A stretch of 58,973 bases of DNA, taken from Puniceicoccaceae bacterium K14 (GTDB lineage: Bacteria > Verrucomicrobiota > Verrucomicrobiia > Opitutales > Opitutaceae). The notes below the pieces were generated by a model. It ran no database searches. It was not told where the DNA came from and saw nothing but the letters and a program-made list of their open reading frames with translations. Location of the stretch: NCBI GenBank assembly GCA_022538095.1, contig JAKYXN010000035.1, positions 1 to 58,973 of the forward strand, read 5' to 3'. Positions within the stretch are counted from its first letter, which is position 1, and each line of letters opens with the position of its first letter. This document shows, piece by piece, positions 34,032 to 58,704 of this stretch. A program made the translations under genes and the position numbers.

Positions 34032-34048
34032 GATGCGAATCAGTCGAA

Positions 34049-34077
34049 AGGCGAGCTAAGCGTAGTTCGCCTTTTTT
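34049..34077 (+). terminator. Terminator after gspG
   Basis: 9-bp stem AGGCGAGCT/AGTTCGCCT (one G-U pair), 6-nt loop, then TTTTT. It likely lowers expression of the downstream gsp genes relative to gspG. Confidence 0.85.
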
Positions 34078-34113
34078 ATCTTAATTTACCCAGTCGTTTT
34101 TAAATACGTGCGA

Positions 34114-35096: not shown

Positions 35097-35101
35097 GCGA
35101 T

Positions 35102-35800: not shown

Positions 35801-35802
35801 CC

Positions 35803-36840: not shown

Positions 36841-36866
36841 CCCATTTAGTAAAGCTACTATAAACT

Positions 36867-38021: not shown

Positions 38022-38596
38022 GTGGAAATAGCATGACCTTAAAAGAACGTTCCCGAGCAAGTGGAGCAATGATTCGCAACCGTTTTTTCCATCTCACTGC
38101 TCGCGAAAAAGTTTTGCTGCTCTTGGTAGTAGGCGTGGTCTTGTACTTCTGGTTTACCAATCAATGGGAACGCCACGATAGGATGTTCTCGCGGATATCT
38201 CTTTTGAACCATGAGGGGAGTCGTCAAGCGGAAGTCATTTCAGAAGGTCCGTCATCGATTCAAGAATACGAACGTGCAATTTCGGAAGTGAATTTTGAGG
38301 AGTTACCTTCCCGCGAAGAGGCCAACGGATTTATCGATAGCCTCATTCGAAAATACGGCTTCCAAAATTTTACGTTGAGTGATCCAGCTTCTGATTACGG
38401 AGCTCCACTCTCTTTCCACACGTTCCGCCTAGATGTTCGAAAGGCAGACTTTGAGACGCTGATAGACTTTACCCACGAACTGCAAAGCACTTTAACTTAT
38501 GTAACCCTGCTGAAGACAACGATCAAGGCCCAGGCCTCCGATCCTTCTCAGCTAAATGCAAACTTTGAACTAAGATCCATCGAATATACACCATGA
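38018..38596 (+). CDS. gspM: GspM-like type II secretion protein
   Basis: 192 residues. A cytoplasmic segment of about 28 residues contains L-T-A-R-E-K-V-L-L-L (the L-S-x-R-E-R/K motif seen in GspM/PilN relatives), followed by one membrane helix and a periplasmic domain. GspM binds GspL. It is translationally coupled to gspL and gspD through ATGA overlaps at both ends. Confidence 0.75.
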   Translation: MSGNSMTLKERSRASGAMIRNRFFHLTAREKVLLLLVVGVVLYFWFTNQWERHDRMFSRISLLNHEGSRQAEVISEGPSSIQEYERAISEVNFEELPSREEANGFIDSLIRKYGFQNFTLSDPASDYGAPLSFHTFRLDVRKADFETLIDFTHELQSTLTYVTLLKTTIKAQASDPSQLNANFELRSIEYTP

Positions 38597-40818
38597 AGTT
38601 TTCGATAAAGAACCCAATTCGTATCCTTATATTTTTTACGCTAATTGCCCCTTTGTGGACGCTTCCGGACCTTGTTGCTCAAGAATCTGAAGAAGTCGAG
38701 GAGACCCTAGATAAACTCGTTTTTCGCGGTACGAAATTGGAGGGTGTCTTGCAAATGTTAGAAATGCGGACTGGGCGAGCAGTGCTTCGGCCGCAAGCCT
38801 TGCCTACCCCCGAGTTTACATTCGATAGCCAAGTTCCCCTAACAAACGAGGAGGCAATTGTCGCTATTGAGAGTTTGCTTAGTTTGAACGGCATTGGTGT
38901 AGCTCCTCAAGGAGAGAAATTTTTGATTGTGGTGCCGATTGATGCCGTTCGTACTGAAGCCCCAGAGTTGGTCATTGGCTCCTTGGCAGATCGCGAACCA
39001 AGTAATAAAGTGGTGAGCAAACTTTTTCGTCTCGAGTATTTGGATTCGCAAACATTTCAGCAGCAAATTCAGCCGTTTTTGAGTCCGCGCTTTAATCAGA
39101 TAATTCCATTCCAAAACTCTAATGCGGTGATCGTCACGGATACTGTAAGAAACTTGCAGCGTTTGGAGTATGTAGTTTCTGAAGTCGATAAGCCAAGCCG
39201 GCTAAATATTGAAACGCGTTTCTACACTTTGAGCTATGCTCAAGCGAGCGAAGTATCTGATCATATCCAGTCATTTATAGATGCAGCTAGGAATAGTTTC
39301 GGTACGAATAACAATAATCAACAACGAGGAAATAACCGAAACAATAACGGGAATGCTCCTGCCCCTGTACAAGCAGCTGTGCCTGCAGGTGACGGATCAA
39401 TCCCCGCACAGATCCTGTTCGGCTCCAATACGGCAATCTCTTCCGATGATCGCACAAATCAAATTATCATAATGACAGAACCGTCGAATCTTAAGTTTTT
39501 CGACGACATTATTGCTAAATTGGATATTAAGGCGGACCCGAGCACGCGTATTGAGGTGATCGCTCTGAAGCATGCGGATGCAGTCGAAGTGGCATCTCTT
39601 TTGACAGATGTTGTTTCTGGCCGTACCAGCGGAGAAAGAGGAGATAGGTCAACTGCCAACTCTAACACAAGTGCCCGTGATCGAGTGACAGGCGTTCCTC
39701 GCACTGCGACGACGCCACGAACGGTCCAGCCAAACACAACTCCTCAAACAAGGACTCCTTCAGCAGACGGAGAATCGAGCGATAGTCAATTCAGTGACTT
39801 CATGACAATTATCGCTGATGAGCGTAGTAATGCCCTTGTTATCTCAGGTACACGTGGAGATTTAGAAATTATACGAGAGTTGGTTAGTCGAATTGATGTA
39901 TTGCTCGCTCAAGTGCAAATCGAAGTCATTTTGGTGGACGTAACTCTGTCAAATTCGAGGACCCGAGGAATTGATGCATTTGGCGGAACCTTTACACAAG
40001 GAACAGGGACCGCGGGCGACGAGATAGTTATTGGTGATAACGGGTTCAATCTTTTAGGTTTGGGGCTGGGGGGCAGTAGTTTTACCATCAATGATGGCGA
40101 CTTTTCTGATGTATTTGTGAACTTAGTTTTAAACACTGCACAAACGGATTCTGATGTAACAGTGGTTTCTCGACCTAATATTGTAACGACGCACAATAAA
40201 GAGGCCACTGTGATTGTAGGGCAATCAGTTCCGGTGATTTCCAGCACACAATCTACTCTGGATAGTTCTGACAACACGAGAAATTCGTTTACGTTTGAGG
40301 AAATTGCGTTGGAACTGAAAGTAAAGCCCTTGATTGGTCCCAATAATGTGATTCAGTTAGAAATTGAGCAAACGTTTGATGAAGTCATAAGTGCAGATCC
40401 GGATATCGCTGGAGGCAACCCGGTTATCGGTCGAAGAGAGGCATCTTCGTTCGTGAGCGTTAAGGATGGTGAGTTAATCATACTGGGTGGCTTGCAACGG
40501 GAGCTTAGTTCAAAGAGCAAAGGAAAAACAGCGATTCTAGGAGATATACCATTTATCGGTGGTTTTTTGTTCGGATCACGTAGCAAGCAGAATGATACTT
40601 CTGAGCTAATGCTATTTATCCGTCCTAGTATAATGAGGACGACCGATGCGGTGAATGAGAAAGCCTACGACGCCGTTCAAAATCTCAGCGAAGCTGAACG
40701 AGTGAATCGCATATTATATCCTTCGGAGGAACAAATTGAAGAGGTTGAAGAAACTCCTAAAAAGAAGAAGGGTTGGTTCCGCCTCGATGGGAAAAAAGAT
40801 ACCGAAGGTGAAAACTAG
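38593..40818 (+). CDS. gspD: Type II secretion secretin GspD
   Basis: 741 residues with a signal peptide (about 28 residues ending L-V-A-Q). The N0-like domain covers about 38-115, followed by N1-N3 repeats (R-L-E-Y-L-D-S, F-Y-T-L-S-Y-A-Q-A-S-E-V, I-A-L-K-H-A-D-A-V-E-V-A-S-L-L). The secretin core is about 415-690, with V-P-V-I-S-S and the closing E-L-M-L-F-I-R-P-S-I. Two low-complexity linkers are present: an Asn-rich one at about 235-255 and a Thr/Pro-rich one at about 350-395. The acidic/basic tail after residue 710 (E-E-T-P-K-K-K-K-G) could be the pilotin or outer-membrane targeting region. It forms the outer-membrane exit pore. Confidence 0.9.
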   Translation: MKFSIKNPIRILIFFTLIAPLWTLPDLVAQESEEVEETLDKLVFRGTKLEGVLQMLEMRTGRAVLRPQALPTPEFTFDSQVPLTNEEAIVAIESLLSLNGIGVAPQGEKFLIVVPIDAVRTEAPELVIGSLADREPSNKVVSKLFRLEYLDSQTFQQQIQPFLSPRFNQIIPFQNSNAVIVTDTVRNLQRLEYVVSEVDKPSRLNIETRFYTLSYAQASEVSDHIQSFIDAARNSFGTNNNNQQRGNNRNNNGNAPAPVQAAVPAGDGSIPAQILFGSNTAISSDDRTNQIIIMTEPSNLKFFDDIIAKLDIKADPSTRIEVIALKHADAVEVASLLTDVVSGRTSGERGDRSTANSNTSARDRVTGVPRTATTPRTVQPNTTPQTRTPSADGESSDSQFSDFMTIIADERSNALVISGTRGDLEIIRELVSRIDVLLAQVQIEVILVDVTLSNSRTRGIDAFGGTFTQGTGTAGDEIVIGDNGFNLLGLGLGGSSFTINDGDFSDVFVNLVLNTAQTDSDVTVVSRPNIVTTHNKEATVIVGQSVPVISSTQSTLDSSDNTRNSFTFEEIALELKVKPLIGPNNVIQLEIEQTFDEVISADPDIAGGNPVIGRREASSFVSVKDGELIILGGLQRELSSKSKGKTAILGDIPFIGGFLFGSRSKQNDTSELMLFIRPSIMRTTDAVNEKAYDAVQNLSEAERVNRILYPSEEQIEEVEETPKKKKGWFRLDGKKDTEGEN

Positions 40819-40848
40819 TTTCTTTTGAGCAATCAAACTTTGACTCCA

Positions 40849-41445
40849 ATGAAAAACAGAAAACATACGCATACGGCCTTCGTTTTGATGTTAGCATTGG
40901 TTTGGGCTGCCTTGTGCCCTTTGATTTTTGCAAAGGAAGTTGAATCTCCCTTTGAGCGGCCCAAGGTAGTGGAAGCTCCCAAGCAAAATACAACGCCTGC
41001 TCCGAATCCATTGGACCATATGGAATTTGATGGATACATGAGCATGCAAGGGAAGACGATGATCAGCTTATACGATCGGAAGGAACGTCGTAGTTATTGG
41101 GTTGAGCTCAATACAAAGAATCAAGAAGGCTTTGAAGTTTCAAACTTTCAACAAGGTGGAGGGAATGGAGACTCCGTGCTTCTCAGGCATGGCGGGAAAT
41201 CAAAGAGTATCCAATTGAAGAACTCTGATATCTTGACTTTAGCGACGCCTGCGGCTCCGACTAATTCAAACGCTAATTCGAATCGGAAAACACCGGCTCG
41301 GGCGTCTGCCAATAATAACATCGCAAAAGAGTCAGATGAAGAAGTCCGTGAGCGTATGAAGCGAGTCGCGGAGGAGATTCGCCGCCGTCGGGCGATGAGA
41401 CGCTCGTTGGTGGATGGCAAAGAGAATCAAGACTCCTCGAAATAA
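40849..41445 (+). CDS. Secreted protein of unknown function in the T2SS cluster (possible GspC substitute)
   Basis: About 198 residues from the ATG at 40849, chosen because it gives a normal signal peptide (M-K-N-R-K-H, hydrophobic core, cleavage near L-I-F-A-K). A TTG at 40825 is possible. The middle (about 50-135) looks like a small beta-domain (D-G-Y-M-S-M-Q-G-K, S-L-Y-D-R-K-E-R-R-S-Y-W-V-E-L). The C-terminus is a highly basic helix (R-E-R-M-K-R-V-A-E-E-I-R-R-R-R). No gspC is present in the cluster, and GspC has a small beta homology domain that binds GspD. This protein, encoded between gspD and gspE, could fill part of that role, but no homology to GspC is visible. Confidence 0.55.
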   Translation: MKNRKHTHTAFVLMLALVWAALCPLIFAKEVESPFERPKVVEAPKQNTTPAPNPLDHMEFDGYMSMQGKTMISLYDRKERRSYWVELNTKNQEGFEVSNFQQGGGNGDSVLLRHGGKSKSIQLKNSDILTLATPAAPTNSNANSNRKTPARASANNNIAKESDEEVRERMKRVAEEIRRRRAMRRSLVDGKENQDSSK

Positions 41446-41454
41446 TTTTTTAGA

Positions 41455-43158
41455 ATGGCACTTTTGACAACGAATATTGTTTCTAACTTCAAATTGGATG
41501 AAGAGCAGGAGGCTAAGCTTTCCGAAGCTCGTAGAGGGGATCGCTTGGATACACTCGGACAACTTTTAGGAAAAAATATTGAGGAGACCTTGTCTGCGGT
41601 TAGCAAATACGCTGATTTACCAATCGTTTCTTACGAGCTATTCGATTTGAAGCGACTTCCATCTATTCCTGTGCGTATCCTTCATGAGTTTCATTGCGTA
41701 CCTATCGTAAATGAGGACGAAGAAGTCGAGACGGCGGAGCAAACGGAGAAGTTAGTTTTGGCGACTAGTTGGCCAGTGGACGATGTCATGGATGATTGGA
41801 TATTCGCAGCATGTGGCATTCGGCCAGAGTGGAGGCTTTCAAATCCGGAACGTATTTCAAAGTTTATCACTCAAAATTTGGGAGTGGGATCTGAGAGCTT
41901 GGATGAGTCGTTCGATTTGGATGTCGATGTCGTGCAAACTGACGCTGAAGAAGAAGAGGATGAGGATGCGGCGATTATTCGTTTCGTAAACGAAGTCTTC
42001 AATCAGGCGATCAATGATGGAGCGACGGATATCCATTTCGAGCCTATGGAAGATTCTCTGCGGATTCGTTATCGCATTGATGGTTTACTCGTTTCGGTTC
42101 CGGTTCCTGAGAATTTGTTGAAATTCCAAAGTGCCATTGTCTCTCGATTGAAGATTATGGCGAAGCTAAATATTTCTGAGCGACGTTTGCCGCAGGATGG
42201 TCGCATAAACCACCGAATCGGCGATACTAATTTGGATATTCGTCTCTCAACAATGCCTGTCATGTATGGAGAGAGCATTAGCTTACGTTTACTTAACAAG
42301 AAGAGCACGCCGTTGAGTTTAGGCCAACTTGGAATGTCTGATTCAGATCAGGCAAAAGTGGATCGTGTATTGAACCTTCCATACGGAATTGTATTGGTTA
42401 CTGGGCCGACAGGTGCGGGTAAGTCGACTTCATTGAATGCGTTTATTCGCAAGATTAATTCTGAAGATCGTCGGATCATTACGGTAGAAGATCCAATTGA
42501 GTACGAGGTTCCGGGGGTTAATCAGATACAGGTGAAGTCCGAGATTGGCTTTAGTTTTCCTGAAGCTTTGCGACATGTTCTGCGCCAAGACCCGAATGTG
42601 ATTATGGTCGGGGAAATTCGTGACCAGGAGACTGCTGAGATTGCGATACAAGCCTCACTTACAGGTCACTTGGTATTCAGTACTCTGCATACGAATGACT
42701 CCGCTGGAGCAATTACGCGACTTACCGATATGGGAATCGAACCGTTTTTGATTGCATCGGGTGTCGAAATGGTAATCGCCCAACGTCTACTCCGTAGAAT
42801 GTGTTCAGATTGTAGCACTATGGTTCCGGTTGACCCAGCCAAGCTTCAAGATGCTTTGCAGGTGTTGGACTTGGATGTATCGTTAGCGAATGGTGTAACT
42901 GAATTGCCGGTCTCAACTGGTTGCGAGACGTGTCGAGGGCTTGGGTACAAAGGACGTGTTGGTATTTACGAATTGATGCGAGTGAACGAGAAGATGCATG
43001 ACCCAATCGTTGAACGAGCGGCAGCGCCAGTTTTGCGAGAAATTGGACGCGAAACCGGAATGGTAACACTGGGGCAGTCTGGTTGGGAGCTCGTGCAAAA
43101 GAGAATCACCACGCTGGATGAAGTCGTCCGAACTATTTCAGTAAAGGAAGGCGTTTAG
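41455..43158 (+). CDS. gspE: Type II secretion ATPase GspE
   Basis: 567 residues. The MshEN-like N-terminal domain covers about 20-150, followed by an acidic linker and the ATPase core. Walker A is G-P-T-G-A-G-K-S-T (about 317-325), the Asp box is I-I-T-V-E-D-P-I-E, Walker B is V-I-M-V-G-E-I-R-D-Q-E-T-A, and the His box is S-T-L-H-T-N-D. The zinc-binding C-x-x-C pairs are R-M-C-S-D-C and G-C-E-T-C-R-G-L-G-Y-K-G-R. It powers pseudopilus assembly from the cytoplasm. Followed by gspF after 16 nt. Confidence 0.93.
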   Translation: MALLTTNIVSNFKLDEEQEAKLSEARRGDRLDTLGQLLGKNIEETLSAVSKYADLPIVSYELFDLKRLPSIPVRILHEFHCVPIVNEDEEVETAEQTEKLVLATSWPVDDVMDDWIFAACGIRPEWRLSNPERISKFITQNLGVGSESLDESFDLDVDVVQTDAEEEEDEDAAIIRFVNEVFNQAINDGATDIHFEPMEDSLRIRYRIDGLLVSVPVPENLLKFQSAIVSRLKIMAKLNISERRLPQDGRINHRIGDTNLDIRLSTMPVMYGESISLRLLNKKSTPLSLGQLGMSDSDQAKVDRVLNLPYGIVLVTGPTGAGKSTSLNAFIRKINSEDRRIITVEDPIEYEVPGVNQIQVKSEIGFSFPEALRHVLRQDPNVIMVGEIRDQETAEIAIQASLTGHLVFSTLHTNDSAGAITRLTDMGIEPFLIASGVEMVIAQRLLRRMCSDCSTMVPVDPAKLQDALQVLDLDVSLANGVTELPVSTGCETCRGLGYKGRVGIYELMRVNEKMHDPIVERAAAPVLREIGRETGMVTLGQSGWELVQKRITTLDEVVRTISVKEGV

Positions 43159-43174
43159 CCTAGGATTTCGAGCA

Positions 43175-44431
43175 ATGCCTATCTTTACCTACAAAGCGAA
43201 GAGCTCTAACGGAAAAACGAGTTCTGGAGAAATTGAGGCAGCGAGCCGTAAGTTGGCTTTGCAGAGGCTTTCTTCGCGTGGGTTACGCCCCCTTGTTATC
43301 ACTGAGAAATCTGGAGATTCTGAAAAGGGTGGGGCAAAGAACCCTTTTTCTTCTCTATTTTCGTCCGGCCAGTCTCAGGAGACGATCGCCAAGTCTTTAA
43401 ACAAGAAAATAGCGCTTCCTTTTCTGACTTCGATTAAGGAGCTGCTTGCCTGTGGTATCCAAGCTGGGGATGCGCTTCGCATGCTGAGCGTACGTTTGAA
43501 TGATCCCCGCCAGAAATGTTTAGCCAATTTGCTTTGGGATGATCTGCGCCAGGGGCGTTCTTTGTCGGAAGCCTTGAAGAATCAACCAGCAGTTTTTGAA
43601 GAAAGCGCTGTCAATTTGATCGAAGCTGGCGAGGCGACAGGGAGCTTGAATATGGTGCTTGATCGTATCGTTAGCAATATGGAAGCGCGTAAGGCAATCC
43701 AATCGAAGCTGGCGTCGGCTCTAGCATATCCATTGGTACTGATTTTGATTTGTATTGGTCTGGTCTTGTTGTTCTTGTTTTACCTCCTTCCGAAGATCCA
43801 AGATTTGCTCGATTCGTTGGGAAGTGACCTTCCGTTGCCGACTCGTATTTTGATTGGAATGTCTGAGTTTATGTTGAGCTACGGTTGGATTATCGGTCTC
43901 GGTATGATAGCTGGAGTTGTCGCAACTATTACTTGGAGAAAGACGACGAAAGGCCGCTTAGCGTTTGACGCAATAATTCTAAGGATTCCTGGGTTGGGTC
44001 GTTTTTTGAGGGATACGCAAGTGTTGAAAGTAACACAGACACTTTCCCTATTACTCGAAAACGGGATTACTATGGTACAGTCGCTGCAAATGACAGAGCG
44101 ATCTGTTTCAAATATGTCGATGCGGGAGCGATTTATAGAGGCTCGTGGCAAAGTTGTGGAAGGGGCCACTTTATCCTCGGCATTCAAATCGACTGACTAC
44201 TTCGATGACATGGTGTTGGATATTTTTACGGTGGGCGAGAATACTGGAAACATTGTGCCAGGTCTTAAGCAAATGACGAGTCAGTATAATGAGGCGATTG
44301 ACCGATTTATAAAAGCCTTTTTGGGTTCGATTTCGATTGGAGTATTAATGATTGCGTTTGGGTTTGTCGCTTTAATCGCCTACGGAATTATCTCTAGTGT
44401 CTTTCAGTTGAGTGCTGGGCTTTCAGTTTAA
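43175..44431 (+). CDS. gspF: Type II secretion inner-membrane platform GspF
   Basis: 418 residues. The N-terminus F-T-Y-K-A-K-S-S-N-G-K opens the protein, followed by two T2SSF domains (about 85-210 and 290-410) with three main membrane helices (about 183-210, 231-253, 387-412). N-L-I-E-A-G-E-A-T-G-S-L and D-I-F-T-V-G-E-N-T-G-N-I are the matching motifs of the two halves. It is the inner-membrane core around which the pseudopilus assembles. Last recognisable gene of the gsp cluster. Confidence 0.92.
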   Translation: MPIFTYKAKSSNGKTSSGEIEAASRKLALQRLSSRGLRPLVITEKSGDSEKGGAKNPFSSLFSSGQSQETIAKSLNKKIALPFLTSIKELLACGIQAGDALRMLSVRLNDPRQKCLANLLWDDLRQGRSLSEALKNQPAVFEESAVNLIEAGEATGSLNMVLDRIVSNMEARKAIQSKLASALAYPLVLILICIGLVLLFLFYLLPKIQDLLDSLGSDLPLPTRILIGMSEFMLSYGWIIGLGMIAGVVATITWRKTTKGRLAFDAIILRIPGLGRFLRDTQVLKVTQTLSLLLENGITMVQSLQMTERSVSNMSMRERFIEARGKVVEGATLSSAFKSTDYFDDMVLDIFTVGENTGNIVPGLKQMTSQYNEAIDRFIKAFLGSISIGVLMIAFGFVALIAYGIISSVFQLSAGLSV

Positions 44432-47804: not shown

Positions 47805-48461
47805 ATGTCCAAAGTGTTTCCCAAGTGGTTTAACGCGCTTCCACTAAAGATAATCATATTCTTGGCTGTCTTTGTGGTAACGATAGTTTCTGGAGTCACG
47901 TATTATGCGACTCCTAAGTACACGCGAGTTGGTTACCAACCCGCTCAGCCGGTGCCTTACGACCACAGCTTTCACGTTGGTGAGCTTGGTTTGGATTGCC
48001 GCTACTGCCATAGTAAGGTGGATCAGTCAGGGCACGCCAATGTTCCGGCCAGCTCCACGTGTATGAACTGTCACAGTATTTTGAAGACTGATAGCGAATT
48101 GCTCGAGCCAGTTCGCGCATCTTACGAATCAGGTGAGCCAGTGCCTTGGGTGCGTATTCACCAGGTGCCTGACTACGTTTACTTCAATCACGAAGTTCAC
48201 GTTAATCGAGGTGTTTCTTGTGTCGAGTGTCACGGACAGGTGAATGAAATGGTTGAAGTGAGCCATGAAAAGTCTTTCAGCATGGGCTTCTGTCTCGATT
48301 GTCACCGTCACCCTGAGGAGCACGTTCGTCCTGTTGACGAAGTATTCAATTTAGACTGGGAACATCCAGGAGGTATCAAAGGCCAAATCGCCGACGGGGA
48401 GAAATTCGTCGACGAATGGAATATCAACCCACCACAAAGCTGCTCAGGCTGCCACCGATGA
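47805..48461 (+). CDS. actA: Alternative complex III subunit ActA, pentahaem cytochrome c
   Basis: 218 residues. One N-terminal membrane helix (about 15-33), then five C-x-x-C-H haem c sites at about residues 65-69, 86-90, 139-143, 163-167 and 213-217. ActA carries electrons from the quinol/iron-sulphur part of alternative complex III toward the monohaem subunit and acceptor on the outer face of the inner membrane. Five haems and the F-N-H-E-V-H motif fit the family. Its stop overlaps the start of actB by ATGA. Confidence 0.9.
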   Translation: MSKVFPKWFNALPLKIIIFLAVFVVTIVSGVTYYATPKYTRVGYQPAQPVPYDHSFHVGELGLDCRYCHSKVDQSGHANVPASSTCMNCHSILKTDSELLEPVRASYESGEPVPWVRIHQVPDYVYFNHEVHVNRGVSCVECHGQVNEMVEVSHEKSFSMGFCLDCHRHPEEHVRPVDEVFNLDWEHPGGIKGQIADGEKFVDEWNINPPQSCSGCHR

Positions 48462-51400
48462 AACCAACAAGCTCAAACTCTCACTCTTCAATGGCAGAAC
48501 AAAACTCTGGCCCACGTTATTGGCGTAGTTTAGATGATCTGGCGCAAACGCCGGAATTCATCGATCAGGTAAACCGTGAGTTCGGTCCTGAGGCTTCGGA
48601 AATGAACGAAGTCGATCGTCGTCATTTCATGAAAATTATGGCAGCGTCCTTTGCTCTTGGTGGTATTGGATTCTCTGGTTGCCGTCGCCCAGAAGCTCAT
48701 ATTCTTCCTCATTCCAAGGCCCCTGAGCACTTGGTTCCAGGTGAAGCTCTTTACTACGCATCCTCTTTTTCGGTACGCGGTGAAAGTGTACCCGTGTTGG
48801 TAGAAACGCACACAGGCCGTCCTACTAAACTAGAGGGCAACAAAACATATACACCTTATAATGGTGGCACGACAGGTAAAGCCCAGGCGTCCATCTTAGA
48901 GCTGTACGACCCAGATCGTTCCACACGCCACCAAAAAGGAGATGTGACACTATCGGATGCTGCTGTTGAAGACTTTATTGTCAGTCTCCGCAGCAAGCTT
49001 GCTGAAGAGGGTGGATCAGGTGCGGCTGTGTTGACTGAAAAGTCTTCTTCGCCCACTCGCCTTCGTTTGAAGAAGGCTTTCAAGGCAGCGTATCCAGAAG
49101 CAGTTTGGGCTGAGTACGAGCCAGTAGCGGTTGACAATGCAGCTAAAGCCGCCGCAGCGGTTGTAGGTCCGAATCTTTTACCACGCTACGACTTTACTCA
49201 CGCGAAGCGCATTTTGAGCGTTGCAGGTGATTTCCTCGGCGAGGATCAAGGTCATCTCATGTTCACAAAACAGTTTGCGGATACGCGTCGTGTTCGTTCA
49301 ACGAAAGATGAGATGAATCGCCTCTATATTGTAGAGAGTAATTTCTCTTCGACTGGGGCAATGGCGGATCACCGCAAACGTTTGGCTCCAGGGCAAATGA
49401 TGTCCTTCTTGGCTGCTTTGGCACTTGAGTTGGAGCTCGGGGTTGAAGGCAACGAACTAAAACCGATTCTTACTCCGCTAGCTGATTCTCTTGATACAGC
49501 AACACGTGAATGGATTTCCAAGTGCGCTGTTGATCTGGCTCACCACAAGGGTGAAAGTGCAGTTTATCTCGGATCTGATCTTTCTCCTGAGGCTCAAGCA
49601 CTTGGATTGTTGATCAACGAGAAGTTGGGCAACTTAAGCAAGACGCTCAATTTTGTAGAAGTAGATGCAGATGCCTCCGCTTCGATCGACGAGTTAGCGA
49701 AAGCGATCGAGTCCGGTGAAATCAACACTCTTGTAATTTCTGGCGGAAACCCAGTTTACAATGCCCCAGCCGGTCTCGGCTTTGGCGATTTACTTGAAAA
49801 AGTAGAGACAGTTGTTCGCCTCGGTTACTACTTCGATGAGACTTCTAGTAAGTCGAGCTACCACATCAGCCAAGCTCACTTCCTTGAGTCTTGGGGAGAT
49901 GGAAGAACTTACAAAGGCGACGTGGTCGCTCAGCAACCGATGATTTTGCCATTATTCAATGGTCTATCGGAAATCGAACTGCTGGCACGCTTCGTCGGAG
50001 CGAAAAACACAGATGGTCACAGTCAAGTAGTTGAAACTTTTGGCGGCGCCTCGCGCATATTTGATAAGTTCCTACACGACGGCTACAAAGCGGACTCGTC
50101 GTATACCGCAGTTCGATCCCTCGTTTCGGGCGTTAAGGTTGCGAATTTTATTGTTGGATACGAAGCGCCAGCCGCGACAAGTAAAGACAGCTTGGAAGTA
50201 TTGTTTGTTAACGATTCTTCAGTAGATGACGGTCGCTATTGCAACAATGGTTGGTTGCAAGAATGTCCGGATCCAATGACCAAACTGACTTGGGACAACG
50301 CTATTTTAGTAAGCCCAATGTTAGCCGAAGAGCTTCAGATTGTAGCTTCTGATTCTCTGGTCCAAGTCGCTCGCAAAAACCCGAACAAGGTTAAGGACGG
50401 GCGCGTTTTTGCTCCAGTTGCGACAATTTCAGTCGGAGGCAAGTCGATTACCGGTGCGATTCAGATTATGCCAGGGTTGGACAACTTCACAGTTGTTTTG
50501 CCGCTCGGTTATGGACGCCAAGTCATTGGTAACGTTGGAAAGGGAAGTGGCTTTGATGCTTACCAAATCCGAGTAAATGACACTTCTTATGCGTCGGGCG
50601 CAACCATTGAGCTAACCGGTGAAGAATACCAGTTAGCAAGCACGCAAGAGCACTGGTCGATGGAAGGTCGCGCGATTATTCGCGAGGCAAACAAGGATTA
50701 TTATAAGAAGTCTCCTGATTGGGTAGCCGGTATGGGAATGGAATCACATTCTCCTGCGGTTTACGGCAAGGATAAGAAAATGCCGACCCAGCAGAAGGTC
50801 ACTGAAACGCCACGAGGCGGTTCAATGTACGAGCATCCAGATTTGGATGGTACGCATCAGTGGGGAATGAACATCGATTTGAACGTGTGTACTGGCTGTA
50901 ACGCCTGTGTTATTGCGTGTCAGAGCGAAAACAACATTCCCATCGTAGGACGCGATCAAGTCCGACGTGGACGTGAAATGCATTGGATCCGTATGGACCG
51001 TTACTTCTCATCTGGTCTGGCGAACAATGAGATTCCAAAGGATCCACAAGTCAATTTGCAGCCAATCGCTTGTATGCATTGTGAGACTGCGCCGTGTGAA
51101 ACTGTTTGCCCTGTAAATGCGACGGTTCACGACGAAGAAGGCCTTAATACAATGGCGTACAACCGCTGTATCGGTACTCGCTACTGTGCAAATAACTGCC
51201 CGTATAAAGTACGCCGATTTAACTTTTTTGATTACCAGCAACGCAACAAGGATAAGCTTTACCTAGGACCTTTAGCCCCGAAGGGAATGCCAGAGCTTAC
51301 TCAAATGGCTCAAAACCCGGATGTTTCCGTTCGTATGCGTGGTGTGATGGAAAAATGTACATACTGTGTGCAGCGCATCAACCAAGCTAAGATCGAGCAA

Positions 51401-51811
51401 AAGGCTAAGGCAAAGGACAGTAACGATGTTAAGGTTCCAGACGGGACTATCCAGACAGCTTGTTCACAGGTTTGCGCAACTGACGCTATCGTATTCGGAG
51501 ATATTAGCGATCCCGAGAGCGAAGTGGCTAAGCTCCGCGAAAACGAGCTCAACTACGGTGTTCTTGGATACCTGAACGTTCGTCCTCGCACAACTTACTT
51601 GGCTAAGTTGCGTAATCCAAATCCGGAAATGCCAGACTATTCAAAGCTGCCACTTTCCAAAATGGAGTACAACTTGCAATCTTACGGCGATCCAGCAGGC
51701 CACACCGGCCATCACGGTTCGCACGGAGATCACGATTCACATGATTCCCATTCCGATCACGGACATGACTCTCACTCTGAAGCGAAAAATGATCACGGAG
51801 GTTCCCACTAA
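48458..51811 (+). CDS. actB: Alternative complex III subunit ActB (fused molybdopterin-like and iron-sulphur parts)
   Basis: About 1117 residues from the ATG at 48458, which overlaps the actA stop; 48491 is an alternative. A twin-arginine motif D-R-R-H-F-M-K at residues 54-59 precedes a hydrophobic stretch ending in F-S-G-C (Cys75, lipobox-like). Residues about 85-740 match the molybdopterin oxidoreductase fold, which in ActB lacks the cofactor. Residues about 805-1010 are the iron-sulphur domain with four cysteine clusters ([37 protein letters not shown], and C-T-Y-C). The last 35 residues are His/Asp/Ser-rich and may bind metal. It is the peripheral electron-transfer subunit of ACIII. Confidence 0.92.
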
Positions 51812-53223
51812 TGGCTAGCGCTCACTCAAGCTCCTCTGAGCCAAAACCAGCAATCCTCGCGGAAGTAAATCCGGTTGATATCCCACGCGCTGCGATGGTT
51901 GATAACAACCGTAGCTTTAATTGGATTACAGAAAAAATCTGCGGTATTATCGAAGAAAAGACACCAACTTGGTGGTGGGTGCTTTTCATCATAGCGTGCT
52001 GTACGGCTTCATTCACGCTTTTCGGGCTCGTCTACTTGGTTTCGACCGGTGTCGGTGTTTGGGGATTGGCCAATCCTGTTAACTGGGGTTGGGCGATTGT
52101 AAATTTCGTATTCTGGATTGGTATCGGCCACGCGGGTACACTGATTTCCGCGATTCTTTGTCTCTTAAGACAAAAGTGGCGTACGTCCATTAACCGCGCT
52201 GCGGAAGCGATGACGATCTTCGCGGTTGTGTGTGCTGGTTTATTCCCGGTATTCCACGTTGGTCGTGTTTGGCTCGCTTGGTTTTTGTTCCCACTTCCCA
52301 ATGCAAATGCGATCTGGCCAAACTTCCGTTCAGCTCTTCTTTGGGACGTATTCGCGGTATCCACATACGGTACTGTATCCGTTCTTTTCTGGTATGTTGG
52401 ACTTTTACCTGACTTGGCGACGATTCGCGATCGCTGTACTTCTAAGGTAAAGCAAGTTCTTTACGGTTTCTTCGCACTGGGGTGGAGAGGTTCTAACCGC
52501 CACTGGAGAAACTACGAAATGTGTTACTTGCTCCTCGCAGGTCTCTCTACGCCGCTCGTACTTTCGGTACACACAATCGTATCCTTTGACTTCGCGATCT
52601 CTTTGGTCCCTGGGTGGCACACTACGATTTTCCCACCGTACTTCGTTGCGGGCGCGATCTTCTCCGGATTCGGAATGGTTTTGACGCTTATGCTTCCACT
52701 AAGAGCGGTTTACCGTTTGGAAGATTTGATTACTCAATACCACATCGACTGTATGACCAAGATCGTCTTGGCGACTGGTACTATGGTTGGTTACGCATAC
52801 GGGATGGAGTTCTTCATCGCTGCTTACGGTGCGAACGACTTCGAAATTTTCGCCTTCGTAAACCGTGCTTTCGGTAACTACGCTTGGGCGTACTGGATAA
52901 TGATCTCTTGTAATGTTATTTCTCCGCAGTTCTTCTGGTTTAAGTCGATTCGCGAGAACACAACACTTGTTTGGATCATCTCTATCTTTGTGAATGTGGG
53001 AATGTGGTTCGAGCGATTTGTAATTACTGTTACATCACTCTCACGTGACTTCGTACCATCCAGCTGGGGCTACTATTCGCCGACAGTGGTTGATATCTTC
53101 ACATATCTCGGAACGTTCGGTTTATTCTCCGTGCTATTCCTCCTCTTCATCCGCTTCCTTCCGCTGATGGCAATGGCCGAAATAAAGGCTGTTACTCCAC
53201 AAGCGGATCCGCATCACCATTAA
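51811..53223 (+). CDS. actC: Alternative complex III subunit ActC, NrfD-like quinol-binding membrane protein
   Basis: 470 residues with about ten membrane helices in the NrfD fold. Motifs include [16 protein letters not shown] near residue 105 and [12 protein letters not shown] between helices. ActC binds menaquinol at the periplasmic side and contacts the iron-sulphur part of ActB. The C-terminus ends in H-H-H. Its ATG overlaps the last base of the actB stop. Confidence 0.92.
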
Positions 53224-53248: not shown

Positions 53249-53779
53249 ATGGCGAAAAAATACGGACTCATCGCTAAATTCGACACCCCCGCAGATATTA
53301 TGCACGCTGCGGAGAAGGTGAGAGACGCCGGCTATAAGCAATGGGATGTTATCACCCCGTTTCCAATCCATGGAATGGACCCAGCAATGGGGCTTAAACG
53401 GTCAATCGTCCCACGTTTCACTATCGTAGGTGGTACTCTCGGATTCACTACAGGTATGAGTATGATTTGGTTTACCAACGCATACGACTACAAGATTCTC
53501 ATCGGTGGTAAGCCACTCTTCAGCCCGATGTTTGCCTTCCCGGTATCGTACGAATTGACAATTCTTTTCTCTGCGTTCGCAAGTATCGCAGGTATGTTCA
53601 TTATGAACAAATTGCCAATGCACTACCATCCGATGCTCAAGCATAAGGAAGTCGCAGCTAGCTCAGACGATAAGTTTTTCCTTTATATCGAAACCGCGGA
53701 TCCTCAATACAGCGAGGAAAGCACACGATCGCTTCTAGAAAGCCTCAATCCAGTAGAAATTGACGAACTAGACGACTAA
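53249..53779 (+). CDS. actD: Alternative complex III subunit ActD
   Basis: 176 residues, matching the DUF3341 family of ActD: A-K-F-D-T-P-A-D-I-M-H-A-A-E-K-V-R-D-A-G-Y, then W-D-V-I-T-P-F-P-I-H-G-M-D, followed by two membrane helices (about 60-80 and 98-118). ActD is a small cytoplasmic/membrane subunit joining ActC and ActF. Gap of 25 nt from actC. Confidence 0.92.
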   Translation: MAKKYGLIAKFDTPADIMHAAEKVRDAGYKQWDVITPFPIHGMDPAMGLKRSIVPRFTIVGGTLGFTTGMSMIWFTNAYDYKILIGGKPLFSPMFAFPVSYELTILFSAFASIAGMFIMNKLPMHYHPMLKHKEVAASSDDKFFLYIETADPQYSEESTRSLLESLNPVEIDELDD

Positions 53780-53783
53780 GACA

Positions 53784-54392
53784 ATGCGTTACGTATATCT
53801 AATATTTTTCCTTTTCGTCTTTGCGGCGATTTCGATCCTCGGGTTCCGCGGCAGCAAGACAACCAAGCCACCTCTTGAAGTCTTTTCAGACATGGACCGC
53901 ATGCCGAAGTACATGCCCCAAGGAGAGAGTAGCTTTTTCTCAGACGGTCGCACCGACCGTTTGCCAGTTGATGGAACAGTGGCACGTGGCACATTCCACG
54001 AAGACGAGTACCTGGCTACTGGTAAAGTAGGTGGAGATTTCGGATCCGGTTTTCCACTCCCTGTTACTAACGAACTTATGGAGCGCGGCCAGGAACGCTA
54101 TGACATCTATTGCACAGTTTGCCACGGAGCGGCTGGCGACGGTAATAGTATGACGAAAAAGTATGGCATGCTAGCTGTCGCTGATCTTACTACTCAGCGA
54201 ATCGCAGATTACACAGAAGGCAATATTTACGACGTTATCGCGAATGGTCGTAACACGATGTTACCCTACGCAGATAAGCTTTCGGTAGAAGATCGTTGGG
54301 CTGTTGTCCTTTACGTTCGTGCCTTGCAACGTGCCGCAACTGGTTCCGTTGAAGATTTAACACCATCTCAGAAGGAGGAGCTCGGACTATGA
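53784..54392 (+). CDS. actE: Alternative complex III subunit ActE, monohaem cytochrome c
   Basis: 202 residues. N-terminal membrane helix or signal anchor (about 3-20). The characteristic D-M-x-x-M-P-K-Y segment near residue 36 precedes a single C-T-V-C-H haem site at about residue 111. A probable Met ligand lies in N-T-M-L-P-Y. It is the electron exit subunit of ACIII. Ends with an ATGA overlap into actF, which has a strong AGGAGG ribosome site inside this gene at 54373-54378. Confidence 0.9.
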   Translation: MRYVYLIFFLFVFAAISILGFRGSKTTKPPLEVFSDMDRMPKYMPQGESSFFSDGRTDRLPVDGTVARGTFHEDEYLATGKVGGDFGSGFPLPVTNELMERGQERYDIYCTVCHGAAGDGNSMTKKYGMLAVADLTTQRIADYTEGNIYDVIANGRNTMLPYADKLSVEDRWAVVLYVRALQRAATGSVEDLTPSQKEELGL

Positions 54393-55639
54393 GCTCGCAA
54401 GCTACGACCTCAAATATCGCAATGAACCAAGACGCGTCACTGCCTAACCCGAAAAAGTGGTTAACAATTGGAGCCATCGGGCTTCTCATCTCCCTAGTCG
54501 GTCTAATATCTAGTCCGATCGGAGCGTACTCCTATCTGGTGTCTGTTCTTTTTGTGTCCTCGATTGCGATCGGGATGCTGTTTCTAGTGCTAATTCACCA
54601 CATCTTCGATGCGGGATGGTCCACAGTTGTTCGCCGCCAAGCGGAGAATTTCTTATCAGTGGTTCCGTATTTGGGATTCTTGTTCATACCGTTGTTTTTG
54701 ATGACGATGAAGGACAATGGCCTTATCTGGATTTGGATGGATGATACTGCCTCACTCCATGGTCATGGAACTGTGGGAGAGGATGTTCTCTACTTGAAGA
54801 AAACATGGTGGTTGAACGAAACGTTCTTCTGGATTCGTGCTATCATATGTTTTGGATCCTGGGCCTTTTTCGCTCGTGCACTGAGGAAGCATTCCTTTTC
54901 ACAAGATTCCGATGGTAAAGCCGAGCATACCTTCGCTTGCCGTAAGCTAGCAGCAGGTGGATTGGTTGTTGTCGCGCTTACTTGGTCATGCGCTGCCTTT
55001 GATTGGATCATGGGACTAGAGTACCATTGGTTCTCTACGATGTTTGGTGTTTGGTTCTTCGCAAATGCGATGCGTGCCGCACTCGCAGTATTGGTATTGA
55101 CCTGTACTTACTTGGTCGCAAAGGGACCTCTCAAGGGAATCTTTAACAATAAGCACCTCCACGATTTAACTACGCTTTCCTTTGCATTCTGTGTTTTCTG
55201 GGCATACATCAGTTTTTCTCAGTATTTCTTGATATGGAATGGCAACATTCCGGAAGAAACATTCTGGTTTAACTATAGAGAAGAGGGGATTTACTTCTAT
55301 ATCGGAATGTTCCTTGTATTTGGACACTTCCTATTCCCGTTCCTTTTCTTGCTACAGTTCAAACTCAAGACTGCCCACGCAAGCGCTCGATTCATTTGCT
55401 GCTGGATTCTGTTCATGCAGTTGTTTGACCTTTACTACAATATCTTACCTTCACTGAAAGACTCACATGGTGAGCCTTACCAAATGTTCTCTAGTCCGCT
55501 AAATTTTGTTTGGTTTATTTCAGGAATCGTTGGTGTCGTTGGTATTCTCCTTTGGGCATACTGGACGAGCTTCAACAAGGTGAAGATCATTCCAATCCGA
55601 GATCCACGTATCACGGAATCACTCAACCACAGCCACTAA
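54389..55639 (+). CDS. actF: Alternative complex III subunit ActF, NrfD-like membrane protein
   Basis: 416 residues with about ten hydrophobic helices in the NrfD-like fold, a paralogue of ActC as in other ACIII operons. H-H-I-F-D-A-G-W-S-T-V-V-R-R-Q-A-E near residue 70 and F-D-W-I-M-G-L-E-Y-H-W-F-S-T-M-F-G near residue 208 are typical. It has a role in complex stability and possible proton movement. Confidence 0.9.
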   Translation: MSSQATTSNIAMNQDASLPNPKKWLTIGAIGLLISLVGLISSPIGAYSYLVSVLFVSSIAIGMLFLVLIHHIFDAGWSTVVRRQAENFLSVVPYLGFLFIPLFLMTMKDNGLIWIWMDDTASLHGHGTVGEDVLYLKKTWWLNETFFWIRAIICFGSWAFFARALRKHSFSQDSDGKAEHTFACRKLAAGGLVVVALTWSCAAFDWIMGLEYHWFSTMFGVWFFANAMRAALAVLVLTCTYLVAKGPLKGIFNNKHLHDLTTLSFAFCVFWAYISFSQYFLIWNGNIPEETFWFNYREEGIYFYIGMFLVFGHFLFPFLFLLQFKLKTAHASARFICCWILFMQLFDLYYNILPSLKDSHGEPYQMFSSPLNFVWFISGIVGVVGILLWAYWTSFNKVKIIPIRDPRITESLNHSH

Positions 55640-55651
55640 TAAAAGATCAAG

Positions 55652-55918
55652 ATGGCGGATACACCCACACGTAGTTCTTTTCCGACAGTAATCGCAATTA
55701 TCGGAGCCTTTGCAGTCTTCATCGTTCTTTTGAGTTTCAAGTACGGCACTGAAGACTCTTCCACTGAAGAAGTGGTCGAACGGCCATCGCTTGCAGAGCA
55801 CGAAGCTGAAGCCACTGCCTTGCTTGGTGGTGCAAAGGTAATTGACGCCGCAAACGGAAAAGTTCGTTTACCGATTGATCGAGCGATGCAGCTCGTAGTC
55901 GCAGAAAATTCTAAATAG
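55652..55918 (+). CDS. Small single-pass membrane protein between actF and the CcoN-like gene
   Basis: 88 residues: a short N-terminus, a membrane helix at about 12-29, an acidic stretch (S-S-T-E-E-V-V-E), then a short C-terminal region with V-R-L-P-I-D-R-A-M-Q-L-V. No family recognised with certainty. Gaps of 12 nt before and 31 nt after place it firmly in the operon. It could be a linker subunit that holds the ACIII and CcoN-like parts together, but this is inference. Confidence 0.65.
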   Translation: MADTPTRSSFPTVIAIIGAFAVFIVLLSFKYGTEDSSTEEVVERPSLAEHEAEATALLGGAKVIDAANGKVRLPIDRAMQLVVAENSK

Positions 55919-55949: not shown

Positions 55950-57431
55950 ATGAACTTGATCTCTAACATTTGCTCAACCCTTTGTCCTCAACTTGAGGAT
56001 GGGGAAGAGGCACGCCAAACCGAAAGGGCTATTGATGCATCTTTGCGATTCCCAACTTTGGGACTCATCAAGGGGGCAGCAGTCTGGCTCGTCATCGCCT
56101 TGGCGTTTGGTATCGTCTCTTTTATCAAATTAGTTTCGCCCGATTTTATGGGTGATTCTGCAACCTTTACGTACGGGAAGGTGGTACCCGCTTTTTGGAA
56201 TGCTTTGGTCTATGGATTCGCTTTCAATGGTGGTCTTGCGTGCGCTACTTGGACAATTGGACGACTTACCGGAAAAGCGACAGGACTAAATATTACTCTC
56301 GTAATTGGAATCATTGCTTGGAATTTCAGCGTATTGTTTGGGCTTGGGGGAATTTTCTGGGGAGATCAGACTCCTTTTAGCCTACTGGAATTTCCCCCGT
56401 ATGCGGCTTACATGTTGTTGGCCTCTTTCGCTTTGATTGGGTTTTGGGCCTTAAAGACTTTTAATAAACGTATTTTTCGCAGCACTTTTGCGGCACAGTG
56501 GCATCTTGTCGCAGCAGTTTTCGCTTTTATTTGGATTTTGAGTGTCGCTATAATCATGCTTTATTGTGCACCTGTCCAAGGCGTTTTCCAAGGTCTTGTT
56601 GCAGCCTGGTACTCTAGCAATTTGCTAGGACTTGTGTTGTTCCCAATGACGTTCGCCGCACTTTACTATTTTATTCCAAAGGTGTTTGGTACGCCCATCG
56701 TAGGTTATCGTTATAGCGGGATCGCCTTTTGGACGTGGATGCTTTTTACCGCGTTTTCTGGTCCGGCTGCTCTTGTAAACGGGCCTGTTCCATTTTGGGT
56801 AAGCAGTATTGGCGTATTGGCTACGTTTGGATTGTTGATGCCAACTACTACGCTATCAATTCAATTTTTGAGTTCTCTACTGGGGAATTTTAGTAATATT
56901 TGGAAAACCATTGCTGGCCGGTTCCTTTTGATCGGGGCACTTTCATTCACCTTGTATTCATTACTGAGCATTTATGCTTCTTGGAGGATGACTAATGAGG
57001 TTATTCAATTTTCTCTCTTCGATTCTGGTCTAATGATCCTCGGATTGCTCGGTTTTGTCGGGATGACGCTCATTGGTGGCATGTATTATATATTGCCCCG
57101 AATAGTGAATAAGTCTCTGCCTTCTAATATAATTGACCTACAATTTTGGGCACAAAGCTTCGGCTTAATTCTTATGGTAGGTAGCTTGCTTTACGGTGGC
57201 TATCAGCAAGGTGCTCTTTTAAATGGTAGCAGTGACTCTTCTTTAGTCACTATCCTTACAGTTTCTCAATCATTCCTTTTTGTAACTATCCTAGGCGCAG
57301 TGTTCTATCTTTTTGGTGCCGTCGCGTTTATGGTTTCATACATTTGGGTGACGCTTTCAAGCCGCAGTGAAACTGAGAAATCCGCGGAATTGGTAAAAGC
57401 CTCATCTGATTTGGAGTATAGCGCATCATGA
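55950..57431 (+). CDS. CcoN-like (cbb3 oxidase subunit I) protein lacking all metal-ligand histidines
   Basis: 493 residues with about 12 membrane helices, clearly aligned with cbb3 CcoN (A-W-Y-x-x-N, Y-Y-F-I-P-K, G-P-x-x-L-x-x-x-P-V-P-x-W, I-G-G-M-Y-Y-I-L-P-R). The ligand positions are replaced: Phe82 for the helix-II haem b His (V-V-P-A-F-W-N-A-L), Ser223 for a CuB His (W-Y-S-S-N against W-Y-x-H-N), Ala273 and Ala274 for the CuB His pair (G-P-A-A-L), and Leu356 and Asp358 for the haem b3 and haem b His (L-F-D-S-G against H-V-H-S-G). The catalytic Tyr position is Thr267. The only His is His185. The frame is intact and the gene is coupled to the CcoO-like gene by ATGA, so it is not a decaying pseudogene. 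It cannot bind these metals as an oxidase and is probably a structural scaffold for cytochrome c subunits. Confidence 0.88.
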   Translation: MNLISNICSTLCPQLEDGEEARQTERAIDASLRFPTLGLIKGAAVWLVIALAFGIVSFIKLVSPDFMGDSATFTYGKVVPAFWNALVYGFAFNGGLACATWTIGRLTGKATGLNITLVIGIIAWNFSVLFGLGGIFWGDQTPFSLLEFPPYAAYMLLASFALIGFWALKTFNKRIFRSTFAAQWHLVAAVFAFIWILSVAIIMLYCAPVQGVFQGLVAAWYSSNLLGLVLFPMTFAALYYFIPKVFGTPIVGYRYSGIAFWTWMLFTAFSGPAALVNGPVPFWVSSIGVLATFGLLMPTTTLSIQFLSSLLGNFSNIWKTIAGRFLLIGALSFTLYSLLSIYASWRMTNEVIQFSLFDSGLMILGLLGFVGMTLIGGMYYILPRIVNKSLPSNIIDLQFWAQSFGLILMVGSLLYGGYQQGALLNGSSDSSLVTILTVSQSFLFVTILGAVFYLFGAVAFMVSYIWVTLSSRSETEKSAELVKASSDLEYSAS

Positions 57432-58054
57432 ATCGCGGTCCTTTTATTTTCATCGGTCTTTTCATAATCCTCGCTCTTTCGTGGGCGTACACGCTGGACC
57501 GCCCACAGGCTGAAAGCGGAAAGCTTTCACCAATCGGTTCTAGTTCTGAGCGAATGCCGAGAGAAACGGTTGGTTTAGCAGCCAAAGGCAAAGAAGTTTA
57601 CCAAGAAATGGGCTGTATTGCTTGTCACACACAACAAGTTCGTTTCGAGTCTGGATCCGATATCGCTCGGGGATGGGGAGAGCGTCAAAGCGTCGCTCGC
57701 GATTATATAGACCAAAATCCTGTTTTGTTAGGACATAACCGTATCGGCTCAGATCTTACGAATGTTGGTTTGCGTTACGAAGAAGCTGACGTTCTTCATC
57801 AACTTTTCTATAACCCACGTATTTCATCTTCTAAGTCTAACATGCCATCGTATTCGTTCCTCTACGAAGAACGAAAGATAATTGGTCAGGCTTCTGACAA
57901 TGCTCTGGTATTGCCGGACGAGTATGCTCCTGAAGAAGGAATGGAAATCGTTCCAACAAGCAAAGCCAACGCACTTGTAGCCTATATGCTATCACTCAAG
58001 GCCGACTACGATTTGGTTGAAGCTCCTAGTTTAAAGAAAGTTGATCTCAAGTGA
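57428..58054 (+). CDS. ccoO: CcoO-like monohaem cytochrome c
   Basis: 208 residues. N-terminal membrane helix (about 5-22), one haem site C-I-A-C-H near residue 63, followed by the CcoO-typical T-Q-Q-V-R, R-G-W-G, S-V-A-R-D-Y, R-I-G-S-D-L-T-N-V-G-x-R and the Met ligand region N-M-P-S-Y. In cbb3 oxidases CcoO sits against CcoN and passes electrons to haem b. Here the partner CcoN-like protein has no haem ligands, although this subunit keeps its own. Overlaps the previous and next genes by 4 nt each. Confidence 0.88.
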   Translation: MNRGPFIFIGLFIILALSWAYTLDRPQAESGKLSPIGSSSERMPRETVGLAAKGKEVYQEMGCIACHTQQVRFESGSDIARGWGERQSVARDYIDQNPVLLGHNRIGSDLTNVGLRYEEADVLHQLFYNPRISSSKSNMPSYSFLYEERKIIGQASDNALVLPDEYAPEEGMEIVPTSKANALVAYMLSLKADYDLVEAPSLKKVDLK

Positions 58055-58704
58055 ACGACGATAATCAACAAAACGAAAACTTGCCAGGTTTAGACCAAGG
58101 TAAGGCGAACGATGAAAGCCTCGTTAAGACTCATGCTCGTATTCGGAGAGAATACGTAGAAGGTTCCCCCGTTGCATTTTTCACTGCAATCGCTCTCATC
58201 CTTGTACTGACTTTCAGCTTTTTCTACATACGCCGTTACATGGCAGGTTTTGATGACCAGATGTACCTGACTGACCGCGAGCATATTGCTCAGTTCAAAG
58301 CATATGATACGGGCGAAGTTGTAGTGGCAGGCCCAGACGGAGCTAAGCTTTACCAGCAACAGTGTGTCGCATGTCACCAAGCGACTGGCCTAGGATTAGC
58401 AGGGGCTTTTCCTCCTCTCGCTGGCTCTGATTGGGTAACAGGAGGAGATGGTAATGTTCCAATTCGCGTCCTCTTAGCCGGATTGACAGGTCCTGTAAGC
58501 GTGAATGGCGAATCCTATAACGGAGCTATGCCAGCTTTTGGCCCAGTTTGGGATGATGAGCATATTGCTGCCGTTGTATCTTACATTCGCCAAGAGTGGG
58601 ACAACGGCGCTTCCGAAGTTACTCCTGAGCAGGTCAGTGAGATTCGTAGCGAAATCGGTAGCCGTGGAAATTGGACTGAAGACGAAATTCGAGCGTTCTT
58701 CTAA
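58051..58704 (+). CDS. CcoP-like monohaem cytochrome c
   Basis: 217 residues from a GTG start overlapping the ccoO stop. A soluble N-terminus of about 40 residues and one membrane helix (about 45-62) precede a cytochrome c domain with one C-V-A-C-H site near residue 106. A Met ligand lies in G-A-M-P-A-F-G near residue 154. The architecture matches CcoP with one haem domain instead of two, or the membrane-bound cytochrome of similar complexes. It probably accepts electrons from ActE/CcoO and hands them on. Last gene of the operon, followed by a terminator. Confidence 0.8.
   Translation: MNDDNQQNENLPGLDQGKANDESLVKTHARIRREYVEGSPVAFFTAIALILVLTFSFFYIRRYMAGFDDQMYLTDREHIAQFKAYDTGEVVVAGPDGAKLYQQQCVACHQATGLGLAGAFPPLAGSDWVTGGDGNVPIRVLLAGLTGPVSVNGESYNGAMPAFGPVWDDEHIAAVVSYIRQEWDNGASEVTPEQVSEIRSEIGSRGNWTEDEIRAFF

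Follow-up and report, generated by a model that had tools for sequence, protein, structure and literature searches.

A CcoN-like protein devoid of its haem and copper ligands, encoded in the alternative complex III operon of Puniceicoccaceae bacterium K14 and many of its relatives

The 58,973-nucleotide stretch of DNA from Puniceicoccaceae bacterium K14 analyzed here (the window) carries one tight operon in which the genes of an alternative complex III (ACIII), actABCDEF, are followed by a small open reading frame and by three genes resembling ccoN, ccoO and ccoP of cbb3-type oxidases. The CcoN-like product, encoded at 55950..57431 on the plus strand, lacks every residue that would bind haem b, haem b3 or CuB, from which we infer that it binds no metal; by any known chemistry of heme-copper oxidases, such a protein is predicted to be no oxygen reductase. 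With some reserve, we favor the view that this ligand-less N protein belongs to an enlarged ACIII as a pseudo-oxidase subunit, serving as a metal-free scaffold for two cytochromes c through which electrons reach a separate oxidase.

The gene forms an open frame of 493 codons with an ATG start, just as an earlier note on this DNA had read it, and the overall CcoN-like character proposed there is borne out by two kinds of evidence: Pfam COX1 covers residues 42-451 (E 2e-26, 93.3 bits, cut-off 34.8), and a phmmer search of the PDB (E ≤1) returns five distinct sequences (9g6b, 8smr, 9g83, 3mk7/5djq and 6xkw; E 4.6e-22 to 7.4e-13), which are named cbb3-type subunit N/I or cytochrome-c oxidase and whose CcoN chains align over residues 44-472. 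As a reference for the ligand columns we used the canonical CcoN-CcoO fusion of the same genome, which has all ligands (L002), together with relatives. Relative to L002, H61 is replaced by F82, H208 by S223, Y252 by T267, H258 by A273, H259 by A274, H346 by L361 and H348 by I363; following the cbb3/aa3 literature, we take F82 and I363 to occupy the haem b positions, L361 that of haem b3, and S223, A273 and A274 those of CuB, while T267 stands in the column of the active-site tyrosine. The claim of the earlier note that all six ligands are replaced therefore stands, as do its F82, S223, A273, A274 and Thr267, the last in the alignment with L002 and relatives; its Leu356 and Asp358 are five residues off and are really Leu361 and Ile363, which leaves the conclusion of ligand loss unchanged. 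The whole protein contains one histidine, also as described before. In the PDB alignments, too, the ligand columns hold non-ligand residues, and a mis-register of these columns is ruled out by those alignments, by the CcoN of the same genome and by 110 relatives. The NCBIfam ccoN model (TIGR00780) scores the protein at 111 bits and hence below its equivalog cut-off of 583, which is not decisive by itself because three act-linked CcoN proteins with all ligands score just 225-250 bits. An AlphaFold prediction from two rows gave a mean pLDDT of 39.9, so that retention of the fold is read from the sequence.

All genes of the operon lie on the plus strand. Pfam identifies ActC, ActD and ActE and, through its Fer4 portion, ActB; the names of ActA and ActF follow from their position and content. 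The putative pentahaem cytochrome c ActA (47805..48461, 218 aa) has five CxxCH motifs, and homologues with five CxxCH likewise precede ActB in related operons. ActB, the molybdopterin-like and Fe-S subunit (48416..51811), shows C-terminal Fer4 matches and takes the same place in relatives; its reading frame overlaps that of ActA and its start codon is approximate. It is followed by the NrfD-like membrane subunit ActC (51811..53223; PF03916, E 4.5e-23), ActD (53249..53779; PF11821, E 4.8e-65), the monohaem cytochrome c ActE (53784..54392; PF13442, E 1.4e-12, one CxxCH) and a second NrfD-like membrane subunit, ActF (54389..55639, 416 aa), which has no Pfam match above cut-off and whose position is conserved in relatives. 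The small reading frame between actF and the N gene (55652..55918, 88 aa) has no NCBIfam match; L004 and L035-L038 have a 52-57% identical counterpart in the corresponding position. By eye, the product seems to have a single membrane anchor, and near its C-terminus it shares the motif RLxIDRAxxLVV with L004. Downstream of the N gene lie a CcoO-like monohaem cytochrome c (57428..58054; FixO PF02433, E 2.5e-16, one CxxCH) and, last in the operon and 269 bases before the end of the contig, a CcoP-like monohaem cytochrome c (58051..58704; PF13442, E 9.5e-13, one CxxCH), on which the ccoP model TIGR00782 reaches 43 bits, under its cut-off of 180. The module resembles cbb3 oxidase (3mk7) in the near full-length homology of its N subunit, in the N-O-P order and in its c-type cytochrome partners, the monohaem CcoO being matched by the FixO hit and the single CxxCH; it differs in that N has neither haem and CuB ligands nor the active-site tyrosine and in that the CcoP-like partner has one CxxCH. 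Judged from the operon only, the N protein and the CcoO- and CcoP-like cytochromes would be bound subunits of ACIII. A few kb upstream of the operon (33591-44431) lies a run of genes that by eye resemble those for prepilins and for type II secretion/type IV pilus components.

Searches with the protein found matches in 175 of 273 genomes of the order Opitutales, in 238 of 252 of the family and in 31 of 115 drawn from the phylum, counts that include matches to canonical CcoN. From these we compared 110 distinct act-type Opitutales proteins, a non-random sample of up to 30 best hits per search and others hand-chosen across genera, which favors the clade of the window. Their ligand state is bimodal: 37 have the complete set of six histidines and the tyrosine (HHYHHHH), one has six of these seven residues, and 72 have at most three. 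Among the ligand-less 72, none of the seven residues is kept in 37 proteins, one in 29, two in four and three in two; both haem b histidines are kept in 0 of 72 and all three CuB histidines in one. The only near-intermediate among the 110, L076 (G455:C80:7490-8989), reads HHYSHHH, one CuB histidine having become serine. The neighbors around N are the same with and without ligands, in gene content at the 110 loci and in order among the loci listed, and at least one act gene lies on the same locus for 109 of the 110 proteins. L104 (G307:C1:3323200-3333600) is a second act-type CcoN; it retains all seven residues and lies in an open frame of 999 codons. Around it we found no act, ccoO-like or ccoP-like match, and no act gene within 4.5 kb. 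A CoxB or CoxC match was found at none of the 110 loci, most of which span just 4-20 kb.

The group nearest to the window protein, 45-53% identical to it, is ligand-less throughout. It consists of 21 distinct proteins including the window's own, and one of its members comes from the Opitutales MAG OFTM265 (L004). A sequencing or assembly error is ruled out by this shared state, and a conserved ligand-free clade of the kind that the earlier note had asked about is indeed present. The same note had considered that homologues with ligands might expose the window copy as a single decayed gene: such homologues exist (37 of 110), and the window copy is not a lone decayed gene. Across lineages the replacements at the seven columns vary, reading for instance FEAADVQ, FGSASVY, QQGRHQQ, ANTSRRW or SESSHFV.

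The same ligand loss seems to have been repeated many times among related bacteria. When a tree is built from the neighboring genes, with N excluded, the ligand state needs at least 13 changes, both with 100 rows and with a hand-picked subset of 50, and a count that permits losses only gives 18 to 25, depending on the root. One single old loss is ruled out on this tree (AU p 1.4e-8), by a test that held the ligand-less rows together and is compatible with gene exchange between operons. Owing to the shortness of the loci, many rows of the neighbor-gene tree are less than half filled, and the tree is subject to warnings about long branches and composition. The trees omit nine near-duplicate ligand-less rows; L104 is absent from the neighbor-gene tree as it has no act neighbors, and L076, with six of seven residues, was counted as full in the trees and in the comparison of CcoO and CcoP. 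The N gene's own tree requires just four changes, or six on a hand-picked subset of 50 rows under a mixture model from which the pocket columns were dropped. On it, ligand-less rows tend to have longer branches, and the gap between the two trees may be due either to long branches attracting each other or to N having been exchanged between operons. The latter points to a different history, in which one or a few ancient losses were followed by recombination of full and ligand-less alleles. We regard this as unlikely, yet as deserving serious weight: besides the low change count of the N tree, the ligand-less L090/L091 have N proteins nearer to other ligand-less ones, whereas their neighboring genes group with L019/L049, full copies from the same genus. 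Against it, long ligand-less branches can draw together on their own, the seven-column replacements differ among lineages, and local losses appear on both trees, L130 beside L129 and L039/L044 beside L047. Recombination would concern the history and not the function of the protein, and can be combined with a scaffold role.

Ligand loss in CcoN has apparently also occurred, and repeatedly, outside the lineage of the window. Three genomes of the same class outside Opitutales (G527, G537 and G554) have three PF02461 (pmoA/amoA) matches each and a size of 2.3-2.5 Mb, and a passage of PMC8498564 gives 2.2-2.5 Mbp for verrucomicrobial methanotrophs; it is the gene content that suggests a link between the three and named methanotroph strains. 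Their operon runs from the act genes (in the stretch read for G554 just ActE and ActF) through the small reading frame, N with SESSHFV at the seven columns, CcoO and CcoP to CoxA, CoxC and CoxB. Two further genomes outside the order have a ligand-less N, G500 with HNSQRYH and G548 with HSGNKFL, the latter with ccoO/ccoP followed by genes for CoxA, CoxC and CoxB. In all four genomes with this linkage the CoxB beside N-ccoO-ccoP is devoid of CxxCH, and linkage of ligand-less N to aa3 genes was seen only in these four, all outside Opitutales. In G554 (L181, 10979-17546), a run of genes that look nos-like by eye lies between actF and the small reading frame before N, as though the act-NOP-cox unit tolerated or recruited another respiratory acceptor; a passage of PMC11102522 places nos genes likewise in Methylacidiphilum caldifontis IT6.

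The search with the window protein yields one match each in G527, G537 and G554, namely the ligand-less N. Each genome has two other COX1 matches of 429-437 bits, one of them the CoxA-like protein beside N. Proteins of 559-561 residues with VGFHHQY and GHFH, two in G527, two in G554 and one in G537, are by eye taken for ba3-type and would be nearer to CoxA than to CcoN. One protein of 465-476 residues in each genome, containing GHHYFWIG, is NorB-like by eye; the corresponding genes, which encode GHHYFWIG and WVVHLWVE, lie in L180 (G527), L182 (G554) and L194 (G537), in the first two cases preceded by a monohaem cytochrome gene, and neither the cytochrome/NorB pair of L180 nor the NorB-like protein of L182 has an NCBIfam match at E 1e-5. 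A second CcoN was looked for among the COX1 matches of the three genomes and none was found, so that the 'cbb3-type oxidase' of the literature would be the ligand-less gene.

In the window genome itself, another contig carries an aa3 operon for a dihaem cytochrome c, a CoxB without CxxCH, CoxA, CoxC and CoxD, and elsewhere there is a ccoNO-ccoP operon with all ligands, its ccoP followed by genes that by eye resemble ccoG and ccoI. Each of the 58 family genomes from which a ligand-less copy was extracted has another COX1 match with E 8.1e-87 or better, the value for the window's own ligand-less N being 8.3e-27. Two or more COX1 matches are likewise present in every one of the 18 family genomes sampled in which the copy is full or six-of-seven, so that having other oxidases is no mark of either class. 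G438, from a ligand-less genus and 85% complete, has a 279-residue N fragment and a single COX1 match (9.6e-16). In G298 (g96), 96% complete, we likewise observed a single COX1 match (4.1e-73), by its score perhaps the act-linked copy with full ligands, which may then be the sole heme-copper oxidase there.

These observations suggest the following course of events. A C-family (cbb3-like) oxygen reductase would have been the ancestor, and its ccoNOP-like genes would have joined the act operon. CcoN would then have shed the residues that bind haem b, haem b3 and CuB, with the membrane fold and the CcoO- and CcoP-like cytochromes c being retained. Most likely, the N protein now acts as a membrane scaffold that holds the two monohaem cytochromes against ACIII, and electrons would flow from menaquinol via ActB, ActA and ActE to the CcoO/CcoP hemes and on to a separate acceptor, in the main an aa3 oxidase with a CoxB that lacks a cytochrome c domain. 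We infer both the physical complex and the electron route from gene content and arrangement, the strongest pointer to the route being the linkage of ligand-less N, O, P and CoxA in the methanotroph-like genomes and G548.

The scaffold may instead be a conductor: the old CcoN channels could pass protons or ions and so help ACIII to move protons, with no redox chemistry in N itself. Such a role would fit the pattern of conservation, in that 61 of the 154 columns that are ≥95% conserved in full copies are kept at ≥95% in the clade of the window, with polar residues among them (D29, K60, N84, E147, Q183, N224, K244, R324 and R384); a conserved polar core is also expected of a scaffold, and we consider proton conduction improbable.

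The partner cytochromes bear on the proposed relay. The CxxCH of the CcoO-like protein is kept at 72 of 72 ligand-less loci and at all 36 full loci with a match (two full loci have no match), that of the CcoP-like protein at 72 of 72 and 35 of 35, respectively (three without). At five CcoO columns a single residue that is present in 94-100% of full operons drops to ≤52% in ligand-less ones, namely R, T, M, W and H at positions 100, 105, 106, 124 and 128 of the extract, whose numbering begins two residues before the protein start; the C, C and H of CxxCH remain at 100% in ligand-less operons. Drift of this kind beside a kept CxxCH would be expected if the step from CcoO to haem b is gone and the cytochrome still works, and our guess is that the drifting columns face haem b. 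A CcoO methionine column, taken for the axial haem ligand, is at 100% in full versus 81% in ligand-less operons, for which reason not every relay is surely intact. The N and cytochrome genes are adjacent and overlap, which would also suit an assembly or regulatory factor that acts outside the working complex in CcoO/CcoP folding, haem attachment or oxygen sensing. This reading appears slightly less probable still than proton conduction: the arrangement is that of the structural module ccoN-ccoO-ccoP and the genes are linked in many families of the order, and nothing requires an assembly factor to have the core of an oxidase.

More doubtful again is a role in which N has gained new residues for holding a different cofactor or metal. 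One to three of the six histidines are retained in 35 of the 72 ligand-less copies; even so, the sole histidine of the window protein is absent from L004, and the replacements differ between lineages.

Selection on the gene was estimated as Nei-Gojobori dN/dS for the 45 closest pairs among those passing a word filter, all of them relatives of the window protein, whose own nearest relative is 53% identical; single values are rough because dS exceeds 1 in several pairs or could not be computed. Among the pairs listed, dN/dS is 0.04-0.23 for close ligand-less pairs, about 0.04-0.10 within the clade of the window, and 0.03-0.26 for full-ligand pairs. No internal stop codon occurs in any N match listed from the searches of order and family, and the open frames and dN/dS of relatives rule out a pseudogene. 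A decayed gene heading for loss, to which the longer branches of ligand-less lineages on the gene's own tree might point, is highly improbable given these values, the uninterrupted frames and a gene neighborhood conserved in many genera. The proposal of the earlier note that the protein was kept as a non-catalytic platform gains support from the ligand-free clade and from the low dN/dS it had called for; the platform role itself is presumed, and the other option named in the note, a proton/quinone-related membrane part, may likewise be compatible with the data.

ACIII beside C-type oxidase genes in Opitutaceae and methanotrophs is already in print, according to a passage of PMC8498564 that cites Refojo 2010. 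A 'cbb3-type oxidase' beside ACIII in verrucomicrobial methanotrophs appears in passages of PMC8498564, PMC6688271 and PMC11102522, which by description concern the same locus, and a passage of PMC10205796 names the cbb3 type only for these methanotrophs. As far as those passages go, the loci were published as cbb3 oxidase, whereas CcoN is ligand-less in the lineage of the window and in the three pmoA-bearing genomes. Supercomplexes of ACIII and an oxidase with direct electron transfer have been reported, and ACIII is described as feeding caa3/aa3 oxidases directly in Rhodothermus marinus and Flavobacterium johnsoniae (passages of PMC5928083 and PMC8552683). The likeness to our case is the delivery of electrons from ACIII to an aa3-type oxidase, which here is proposed from gene content; the difference is that in these supercomplexes a cytochrome c domain together with ActE/ActA forms the bridge, and the passages mention no CcoN-like subunit. 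An earlier description of a ligand-less CcoN was found neither by searches of an open-licence library, which covers the field in part and leaves most subscription journals outside, nor in the passages cited above or in those of PMC13274419, PMC5615132, PMC8407424, PMC8115632 and PMC5492636.

Returning to the scaffold as the preferred role, we give an even chance to the conjunction that the ACIII of Opitutales and verrucomicrobial methanotrophs has at least nine subunits, with a metal-free oxidase-fold cytochrome platform in many lineages, that the core was disarmed in at least a dozen of them, and that the 'ACIII-linked cbb3' of Methylacidiphilum is no oxidase. If this holds, the high oxygen affinity credited to that enzyme must come from elsewhere, which bears on respiratory models of verrucomicrobial methanotrophs that count a cbb3 oxidase beside ACIII. 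It would reveal a conserved and probably repeatedly evolved non-oxidase branch that homology-based annotation has hidden, and related pairs of operons with and without the metal site would make the structural and catalytic roles of CcoN separable. Finally, it suggests how ACIII could feed an oxidase that itself lacks a cytochrome c domain.
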